DNA from: Microbacterium sp. | Lineage (GTDB): Bacteria; Actinomycetota; Actinomycetes; Actinomycetales; Microbacteriaceae | Assembly: GCA_031178475.1 (NCBI GenBank) | Contig: JAPSIX010000005.1 | Span: 1-35,440 of the forward strand | DNA: 35,440 nt | Direction of reading: 5' to 3' | Shown: positions 30,611-33,555 of the stretch, piece after piece | Layout: every line of letters starts with the position of its first letter | Position numbering within the stretch: position 1 is the first letter of the stretch | The notes under the pieces: model-generated | Seen by the model: the letters and a program-made list of their open reading frames with translations, nothing else | Told to the model about the DNA's origin: nothing | The model's database searches: none | Translations under genes and position numbers: made by a program

Positions 30611-32608
30611 TCACATCACGTTGCCGATGTAGGAGTACTTGACGAACACCTCCGACGCGATGCCCGATTCCTCGAGCACACCCTGCAGGGCGCTCATCAT
30701 GTAGTTGGAATCCCAGCCCATGTAGAGGAAGTGGCTCTCGTCCAGCGCGTCCCAGTGACCCTTCCACGCCATCGCGTCGTAGATCGGCCCGCCGTGGCGT
30801 GCGCTGTACGCCACAGCGGCGCGGCGCTCGTCGGTCCACGCTCTGCGGAAGATGCGATTGAAGAGCGCCTTGACATCCTTGACCTCCCAGTGCTCCCCGC
30901 GGTACTCGACGTAGTCGAACTCACGCTCCCACCCGGCGGGCCACCCGCGGCGGCGCACGGCGTCAAGGATCGGCGTGAGACCGTCATCGTCGATCTCCGG
31001 CAGCGCCGGACGGGCCCAGATGCGCACGAACTCCGCCGCCAGCCGCACGGTGCGCTCGGCGATCGCCGCGGTGCCCCATCCCGGCAACTCCGCGAGCTCG
31101 CTGGTGGCGGGCACGGCGCTTCGCGCGTAGGCGCCGGTCTGCTTGTCGGGGAACGACCCGCCGAACACCCTCTCGCTGAGCGGCTGCTCGAGCAGCGTGA
31201 GGTTGCCCAGCGTAGGAGCGAGCGCGCGGTGGCTGTTCTGCTCGTCCTCGCTGTACTCGCTCCACTCCCGGATGCCGTCACCCGACCACGAGTCGGCGGG
31301 AGCGGCGGGCACGATGTGCTCGACATCGAAACCGGTGGGATCCTCCACACCCTCGATGCGGCTGAGCACGTACGCCGGATGCGGCAGCTCGCCGTACTTC
31401 AGAACGGCGCTGACGCGCTCGTCGGACGGCGTGATGCGCGCGACAGCGCGCATCAGCGAGTCTCGTCCCTCGGCGCGCGCCCGGCACAGCCGTGCGATCA
31501 GCCGGTCGGTCGGCAGCCCCACCACCGCCCGGCGCAGCAGCATCGCCTGCACCCACTCCAGAGTCTCGATCAGCTCGTCGCGTTCGATCAGTCCCGCCCG
31601 GTGGTCGCCGTACGCGCTCATGACCAGCGGGTGCGCGATGCGCCCGAAGGTGTTGACGTACGTCAGCTGACGGCGCACCTCCTCATCCGCTTCGCGGGAC
31701 GGGTCGAGCAGGATGCCGTAGATCTCGGCGTACTCCCGCCACACGGCGGCGTTCGAACGCAGGTGTGCGGCGTCCAGGCGCGGGAACCGCTCGCGGAACG
31801 CCGCGTAGACACCGTGTTCGCCGGCGGCGGCAACCTCTCGGCCGCCGGTCATGACCAGGTAGTGCCGCCAGAAGGCTCCGATGCTCTCGCCGGTGTGTCG
31901 TTCGATAGGCAGCCAGTACTCGTCCTCAACGGCGAGCTGCTCGGCGTGCGACAACCCCATGAGGATGTAGTTGTGGATCAGCTCGTGGTCGCGCAGCGGC
32001 TCACCCGTGGAGTTCAGGCTCTCGAAGATCTGCTGGGCGTTCGCACTGGCGCCGAGAGTGATGGACACATGCTCGAGCTTGCGCAGGCCCCGCCAGATCC
32101 GAGGTGCCTCGTCCGCCTGCACCTGACTGCGGAAGAACGCATAGTTGTCATCGAACCGCGACTCGCGGTCGGCGTCATCGCGCCGATCGAGCACCACGGA
32201 CTCATACAGGTCGGCCCAGGCGTCGTGCGGGCGCAGCTTCGTCCGGGCCGGGTCGTTCTCGCGCACCAGCACGCGCTGCAGCTCGGCTGCCAACGATGGG
32301 TCGCTGTCGCGCACGGCGTGATGCAGTGCCGCCACCAACAGCATGATCGTCGTGATGCGCTGCTGGCCGTCGATGAGGATCAGGTCGTCGCGCTCGGCAT
32401 CCTCGGCGGAGAGGATCGATCCGATGAAGTGCCGGTGCGCATCATCCTCACTCGCCACGGCCCGGATGTCGCTGAGCAGTTTCTCGCATCCGCCGATGTC
32501 CCAGCGGTACTGCCGCTGGTAGACCGGGACGACGATCGTCGTGGACGGTGACGACAGCCATTCGACGGTGCTGACTGCGTTCGCTTCGACATTGGTCGCC
32601 GTTGCCAT
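30611..32608 (-). CDS. DUF262 + DUF1524 protein (GmrSD-like)
   Basis: N-terminal VPVYQRQYRW...HFIGSIL...LILIDGQQRITTIMLL (DUF262). Central VEHIVPAAP...TLGNLTLLEQPL (DUF1524/HNH-like). Extra C-terminal module. Confidence 0.88.
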   Translation of the reverse strand: MATATNVEANAVSTVEWLSSPSTTIVVPVYQRQYRWDIGGCEKLLSDIRAVASEDDAHRHFIGSILSAEDAERDDLILIDGQQRITTIMLLVAALHHAVRDSDPSLAAELQRVLVRENDPARTKLRPHDAWADLYESVVLDRRDDADRESRFDDNYAFFRSQVQADEAPRIWRGLRKLEHVSITLGASANAQQIFESLNSTGEPLRDHELIHNYILMGLSHAEQLAVEDEYWLPIERHTGESIGAFWRHYLVMTGGREVAAAGEHGVYAAFRERFPRLDAAHLRSNAAVWREYAEIYGILLDPSREADEEVRRQLTYVNTFGRIAHPLVMSAYGDHRAGLIERDELIETLEWVQAMLLRRAVVGLPTDRLIARLCRARAEGRDSLMRAVARITPSDERVSAVLKYGELPHPAYVLSRIEGVEDPTGFDVEHIVPAAPADSWSGDGIREWSEYSEDEQNSHRALAPTLGNLTLLEQPLSERVFGGSFPDKQTGAYARSAVPATSELAELPGWGTAAIAERTVRLAAEFVRIWARPALPEIDDDGLTPILDAVRRRGWPAGWEREFDYVEYRGEHWEVKDVKALFNRIFRRAWTDERRAAVAYSARHGGPIYDAMAWKGHWDALDESHFLYMGWDSNYMMSALQGVLEESGIASEVFVKYSYIGNVM

Positions 32609-32713
32609 AACTGAGTGATGCCTCCGATTGGCGGGAAGACGTGGGCCGCCGCGTCGAGTCTAGTCGCCGTCTTTTCGCAGCCGCGGTGGCGCCAGGGCGC
32701 GCCGAGGAGCGCC

Positions 32714-32729: not shown

Positions 32730-32769
32730 GTAGGGCCTGTAAAAACGTGCTGGCCCCTTACGAAAGGAC

Positions 32770-33555
32770 ATGGCTCAGATCATGGGATACATCAAGTCCG
32801 CAGCCCTGGAGGAGAAGGGCTTCGTCATCCTGGACCGCTATGACCAGGAGGTCGACCCCAAGGAGTGGCTCGACATCGAGTATGTCGACTGGAAGTCCTC
32901 GGGCGACACCCGCTTCGCCCCGCTCGCCAGCGCCAAGGGCGAGATCGAGTGCAACGGCTTCTGGAACCACAAGCCCCCGCGGACCGACAAGGACGGCGTG
33001 TGGATCGACTCGCAGGTCGAGAAGGCGCCGAACCTCACCCGCCGCGCCCAGGAGCCGGGTGCGAACGTCGGTCGCTGCCGGGTGATCGAACTGCAGCCCA
33101 CGCCCTACGGGGAGTGCCTGTACAACCTGCACCAGGACGACAACAACCGCCTCAACCCCGACGGCACCGGCTGGGTCGTTCGCGGCTTCTTCAACCTCAC
33201 CGACGACAAGGACAGCTATTTCGTCCTGCGCGAGAACCGCACCGACCCGAGCATCGAGTACCGCATCGCGCTGCCCGCCGGTGCCCAGCTCATCGTCGAC
33301 ACCCAGCGCCTGTGGCACGCGACCACGCACAACGGCAGCGAGCCGCGTTACTGCCTGATCACGTCGTGGACCTCCGGTCCTGAGCTGGACGCATACATCG
33401 AGAAGTACAACGGCACCGACCAGCACGAGCAGGTCGAGGTGTCGCAGGATGTGCTCGAAGCCGGCTACGCCGAGCAGGCCCGTCGCGACGCCGCCCGCGC
33501 CGCGTACTACGCCGCGAAGGGCCAGCAGGTCAAGCAGGCCATGAGCGAGGCCTGA
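32770..33555 (+). CDS. Uncharacterised protein with HxD...H...R signature (2OG-Fe(II) oxygenase-like)
   Basis: 261 aa, RBS GAAAGGA. LYNLHQDDNNR...LWHATTHNGSEPRYCLITS gives H121-x-D123, H183, R193. Confidence 0.75.
   Translation: MAQIMGYIKSAALEEKGFVILDRYDQEVDPKEWLDIEYVDWKSSGDTRFAPLASAKGEIECNGFWNHKPPRTDKDGVWIDSQVEKAPNLTRRAQEPGANVGRCRVIELQPTPYGECLYNLHQDDNNRLNPDGTGWVVRGFFNLTDDKDSYFVLRENRTDPSIEYRIALPAGAQLIVDTQRLWHATTHNGSEPRYCLITSWTSGPELDAYIEKYNGTDQHEQVEVSQDVLEAGYAEQARRDAARAAYYAAKGQQVKQAMSEA

Follow-up and report, generated by a model that had tools for sequence, protein, structure and literature searches.

The DUF262-DUF1524 gene analyzed here, labeled GMR, probably encodes a domesticated, non-cutting and NTP-switched sensor that works with, or regulates, an oxygenase gene (OXY), the two forming a chromosomal two-gene module. 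Loss of DNA cutting by GMR and its pairing with OXY are well supported by the comparison of orthologous loci; NTP switching, the ligand, the direction of control and the output are parts of this reading that we infer. Indeed, nuclease loss, vertical inheritance and a constant adjacency to OXY together suggest that GMR descends from a defence enzyme since converted to regulating or partnering OXY. The window, i.e., the whole stretch of DNA analyzed (35,440 nucleotides), is contig C160 of a partial MAG from the Microbacterium group (2.19 Mb, 320 contigs, 77% complete), in which GMR was the sole DUF262 gene found. The features discussed below are located in Table 1.

Table 1. Position of the GMR and OXY features in the window.
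Feature	Position	Strand	Description
GMR ORF	30611..32608	(-)	665 aa, ATG start; DUF262, DUF1524 and C-terminal domain
DUF262 (GmrSD_N), aa 18-215	31964..32557	(-)	Pfam; invariant DGQQR at aa 80-84
DUF1524 (GmrSD_C), aa 417-525	31034..31360	(-)	Degenerate HNH site; Pfam and orthologue alignment
GMR C-terminal domain, aa ~540-665	30614..30991	(-)	Most constrained region; no Pfam family
His431 codon	31316..31318	(-)	General-base position; His here, replaced in some orthologues
Codon 478	31175..31177	(-)	Ser here; metal-ligand Asn position (GmrD N178 / SspE N676)
TAGACT	32657..32662	(-)	Candidate GMR -10 element (inferred); in most of 100 distinct intergenic regions
GTAGGCTTGCCTAA	32716..32729	(+)	TTAGGN4CCTAA-like palindrome over candidate OXY -10; DtxR/IdeR-box-like, tentative
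OXY leader hairpin GGGCCTGTAAAAACGTGCTGGCCC	32733..32756 (leader 32731-32769)	(+)	Adjoins the ribosome-binding site; covariation
OXY	32770..33555	(+)	Predicted 2OG-Fe(II) oxygenase (HxD...H...R), 261 aa; fold and motif

GMR domains and the HNH site

Both halves of GMR were recognized above the curated Pfam cut-offs, with GmrSD_N (PF03235) at E=2.7e-31 and 109.7 bits (cut-off 33.2) and GmrSD_C (PF07510) at E=1.2e-12 and 48.3 bits (cut-off 23), and the two-domain ORF described in an earlier note was confirmed at its exact coordinates. As this note had also proposed, the DUF262 module is intact, the DGQQR and YQRQYRW motifs being found in 124/124 distinct orthologues, and the additional C-terminal tail of about 110 residues is a real conserved domain, of ~125 aa as delimited here. 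According to the AlphaFold2 model (mean pLDDT 85.8), this domain adopts a beta-beta-alpha-alpha-beta-beta-alpha-beta arrangement with a pLDDT of ~84-91 over aa 580-650. It had no significant family among Pfam and PDB sequences; DUF7253 and HEPN gave weak matches only and were dropped. Other members of the superfamily carry AGT-like DNA_binding_1, DUF4268, DUF5655 or RAMA modules at their C-terminus, hence a variable C-terminal module is normal in this superfamily. The dN/dS ratio, computed from 27 independent close pairs, was 0.078 for the whole protein, 0.069 for DUF262, 0.113 for DUF1524 and 0.048 for the C-terminal domain. Judging from these ratios, GMR outside its nuclease site is not decaying and is under purifying selection.

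In GmrD, the nuclease domain is defined by the motifs (E/D)HxxPQ, L(G/A)NLxLLxxxN and NxxFxxKK, and residues D113, H114, N169 and N178 were predicted to be important (PMC4619093). In the GMR of the window, E430, H431 and N469 are present, Ser478 stands in place of the last Asn and the Asn of NxxFxxKK is lost, leaving the E/D-H-N-N catalytic motif incomplete. The earlier note had considered both DUF1524 Asn as replaced; this holds for position 478 and for the NxxFxxK Asn, but the structural Asn N469 (GNL) is intact in 124/124 orthologues. A profile alignment set N676 of SspE (GNLTLLPAVEN), the third HNH residue, against position 478 of GMR, where Ser, Ala or Thr is found; among the 124 orthologues this position is A in 85, T in 31, S in 5 and F, L or G in 1 each, and never N. 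Besides, His431 was swapped for 11 different residues in 21/124 orthologues, for which the family tree calls for at least 9 separate events; E430, N469 and K489 are retained. The proposed divergence of the nuclease site is thus borne out across the whole set of orthologues.

Experiments on related enzymes help to interpret these substitutions. With the N676A change, SspE could no longer nick DNA or confer resistance to phage (PMC9646914). In BrxU, D474A and H475A caused the loss of cutting with the NTPase kept (PMC8565348), which is, by analogy, a precedent for separating the two activities. With the N519A variant of BrxU, cutting persisted in vitro (PMC8565348); the alignment of this residue with GMR position 478 is uncertain. 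Outside the GMR-OXY clade, all 18 aligned relatives (14 from other Actinomycetota genomes and 4 from plasmids) keep E-H-N-N, i.e., the EH pair, the structural Asn and the last Asn. One of them, L119, shares 44% identity with GMR over its full length, and the plasmid-borne L289 (Roseicitreum) and L290 (Rhizobium) have the GMR C-terminal domain in common, with E-H-N-N intact in all three. L289 (6001-8025 of the Roseicitreum antarcticum plasmid pRA03) adjoins a type ISP RM gene, a methyltransferase gene and an integrase gene, and from its sequence and setting is a probable active defence version. Taken together with the SspE and BrxU mutant data, N519A included, the clade-wide loss of catalytic residues makes it likely, without proving it, that the GMR nuclease is inactive; residual or altered activity is possible given the purifying selection on DUF1524 and the conservation of E430 and N469.

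The supposition that GMR is a repurposed relative of GmrSD, SspE and BrxU is supported. Foldseek matched the model to DndI, SspE and BrxU, the SspE/DndI match having a probability of 1.00 and a TM of 0.36-0.48 by query length. The closest solved folds are those of the phosphorothioate-sensing SspE/DndI (PDB 9jfl, E=4.5e-14; 7drs, E=1.5e-13), which have the DGQQR NTPase module in common with GMR; in contrast to GMR, SspE keeps N676, needed for nicking and defence, and the C-terminal domains differ. With the type IV GmrSD enzymes (PF03235 and PF07510; Eco94GmrSD, BrxU), GMR has in common the DUF262-DUF1524 order, a fused C-terminal extension and the YQRxY, DGQQR and FESLN motifs, whereas it differs from them by its broken E/D-H-N-N, its vertical inheritance as a near-core gene, its oxygenase partner and the lack of a defence island. 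PADLOC Orf5 (PDLC02693) and HEC-06 match aa 5-532 of GMR (E of 2.5e-72 and 8.5e-42); aa 540-665 fall outside these models, and the defence role that they imply is unsupported for GMR.

Distribution and pairing with OXY

A GMR orthologue was found in 70/99 Microbacterium genomes, and GMR distances follow the distances computed for PepN, a core protein (Spearman 0.87). On the PepN tree, its presence pattern requires at least 6 changes (gains or losses), 4 of them forced by strongly supported branches. From these patterns, GMR is a vertically inherited gene with some losses, unlike a mobile defence gene. It should be noted that relatives were sampled and not taken exhaustively, and that gaps in draft genomes can distort presence and absence. 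In the window, GMR is surrounded by housekeeping genes (GatB, DNA polymerase IV, ferrochelatase, M1 aminopeptidase, FabF, DUF3145, DUF72 and others), a setting that is neither mobile nor a defence island. Among the ten other large ORFs of the window, itself part of an incomplete genome, no match was obtained with PADLOC defence models, no BREX model was found (the association that goes with BrxU) and no sspABCD/dndBCDE phosphorothioation gene was detected. The stand-alone phage-defence factor envisaged in the earlier note finds no support in such a near-core, species-tree-like distribution and housekeeping neighbors. Conversely, a universal syntenic core gene devoid of accessory distribution, which the note had named as an outcome against its own proposal, is largely what was observed considering the 70/99 occurrence and the synteny with DUF3145 and FabF, except for the gains or losses, which always involve OXY as well.

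Nor is GMR solitary, as had been stated: the oxygenase gene OXY, overlooked at that time, diverges from it. OXY has two in-frame ATGs at 32770-32784 (+), and relatives conserve the second (32782, MGYIKS); hence the protein is probably 257 aa long. Its predicted structure (pLDDT 86) is a double-stranded beta-helix, and H121, D123, H183 and R193 (HxD...H(x9)R) are invariant in 39 sequences, as in a 2OG-Fe(II) oxygenase. Foldseek matched it to proline and Asp/Asn hydroxylases, with the L-proline cis-4-hydroxylase 4p7w at E=1.6e-7. OXY resembles these Asp/Asn/Pro 2OG-Fe(II) hydroxylases (PF05118, 4p7w) in predicted fold and HxD...H...R motif but differs from them by its own leader hairpin and by the lack of any Pfam family at cut-off, the best match being PF05118 (Asp_Arg_Hydrox; E 0.024, in 3/39 members). 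It was not found in the plasmid and phage collections searched.

OXY is present in exactly the 70 of 99 Microbacterium genomes that carry GMR and missing from the same 29; for G023, the adjacent OXY lies beyond the contig end and only an OXY paralogue is visible. Within the family, GMR and the adjacent form of OXY occur both in the same 28/200 genomes, and 12 further genomes have only the paralogue OXY-2, without GMR. Barring the contig edge, no genome with GMR or adjacent OXY alone was encountered in the 99 genus and 200 family genomes. The two genes are adjacent and divergent in 78/80 loci. DUF3145 and FabF lie on the far side of OXY in Microbacterium loci, whereas the GMR-OXY pair stays intact amid different outer flanks in Herbiconiux, Agreia and Lacisediminihabitans. 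In genome G688 (contig C16, L307 2694-8283), about 2.7 kb of extra DNA separates OXY from GMR, both genes being retained. The OXY neighborhoods of distant Actinomycetota had neither GMR nor any common partner, and no description of the GMR-OXY pair was found in the literature.

Competing explanations and proposed mechanism

Because one deletion can remove adjacent genes, co-occurrence alone is no proof of a joint function, and GMR and OXY could be two ancestral chromosomal genes that merely stand side by side. Such a view fits with the apparent vertical inheritance of both genes and the ease with which adjacent genes are lost together. However, we consider it rather unlikely, since the divergent adjacency is held in Herbiconiux, Agreia and Lacisediminihabitans with no other common neighbor, G688 retains both genes despite the distance between them, and genomes with just one gene are absent from the genus and family sets apart from the single contig edge. 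GMR could also be an active, divergent type IV-like nuclease using another HNH metal ligand and still restricting modified phage DNA. The conservation of E430, N469 and K489, a well-predicted domain fold, purifying selection on DUF1524, the in vitro cutting by BrxU N519A (PMC8565348) and the match of PADLOC Orf5 and HEC-06 to most of its length all point in this direction. Nevertheless, the variety of residues (11) that stand in for the general-base His in 21 orthologues, in which the protein is otherwise intact, a position 478 that is neither Asn nor His in 124 orthologues, the lack of nearby defence genes in the window and near-core, vertical inheritance make an active nuclease improbable. 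A phage defence without cutting, in which GMR would sense modified DNA and block the phage by binding, NTP turnover or activation of OXY, would agree with the defence functions of SspE, DndI and BrxU, its relatives by fold, and with the type ISP RM, methyltransferase and integrase genes that neighbor the full-length relative L289. To this we give only a small probability, GMR being near-core, vertically transmitted in the genus and of low dN/dS, and OXY being missing from phage and plasmid collections.

In its simplest form, the history of the domesticated, OXY-associated sensor proposed above would be as follows. In an ancestor common to some of the Microbacteriaceae, a type IV-like enzyme bearing the GMR C-terminal domain would have been fixed beside OXY and would then have lost its nuclease activity, so that the HNH domain no longer cuts DNA. 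GMR would keep the DUF262 NTP-binding switch and the constrained C-terminal recognition domain, its ligand probably being DNA itself or else a mark carried by DNA or by a protein, and its conformation would be altered through NTP binding and hydrolysis. The output would be the control or partnering of OXY instead of cutting, exerted either through the intergenic region between the two genes, as repression or activation, or through direct GMR-OXY contact. A more specific, and improbable, version is a writer-reader pair, in which OXY would hydroxylate a chromosomal target (a DNA base or protein residue) and the nuclease-less GMR would read this mark via DUF262 and its C-terminal domain, NTP hydrolysis leading to a regulatory output; if true, a type IV restriction enzyme would here have been made into an epigenetic or post-translational system. 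Should the sensor reading hold, GMR would clearly exemplify how an enzyme of the type IV restriction/SspE type can be deprived of its nuclease and nevertheless remain under strong selection, inherited, non-mobile and tied to a 2OG-Fe(II) oxygenase. It makes the DUF262 NTP switch testable free of nuclease toxicity. This also calls for caution, as not every DUF262-DUF1524 gene may serve phage defence even though PADLOC models still match GMR. Besides, the oxygenase family and the covarying leader RNA brought to light here both lacked a match in the databases searched.

The GMR-OXY intergenic region

The TTAGGN4CCTAA-like palindrome that overlaps the candidate OXY -10 was found, with at most 1 mismatch, in 94/100 intergenic regions and in 0/100 shuffles. 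No perfect copy exists in the source genome (a partial MAG) and the motif overlaps a TANNNT -10 element; an IdeR box is hence only tentative, and regulation of OXY by IdeR in response to iron was not adopted.

Downstream of this element, the OXY leader forms a hairpin that in most sequences reads GGGCC-UGUUAAAACGUGCU-GGCCC, with a conserved AAAAC loop. Six of the 7 stem pairs are changed on both sides, i.e., covary, and the covariation score was 0.421, compared with 0.187 in shuffles, 0/500 of which scored as high. An Rfam search of the intergenic region returned chance matches only. A role of the hairpin as a target of GMR was not retained as the leading hypothesis, OXY-2 paralogues carrying it in the absence of GMR, which is thus not needed for the leader; on this sequence evidence, the hairpin belongs to OXY and not to GMR. 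It can be considered as a candidate cis-regulatory RNA specific to the oxygenase family. The covariance model found no such hairpin in the other Actinomycetota sampled, and its 35 hits across 150 family genomes lie without exception immediately upstream of OXY or OXY-2.
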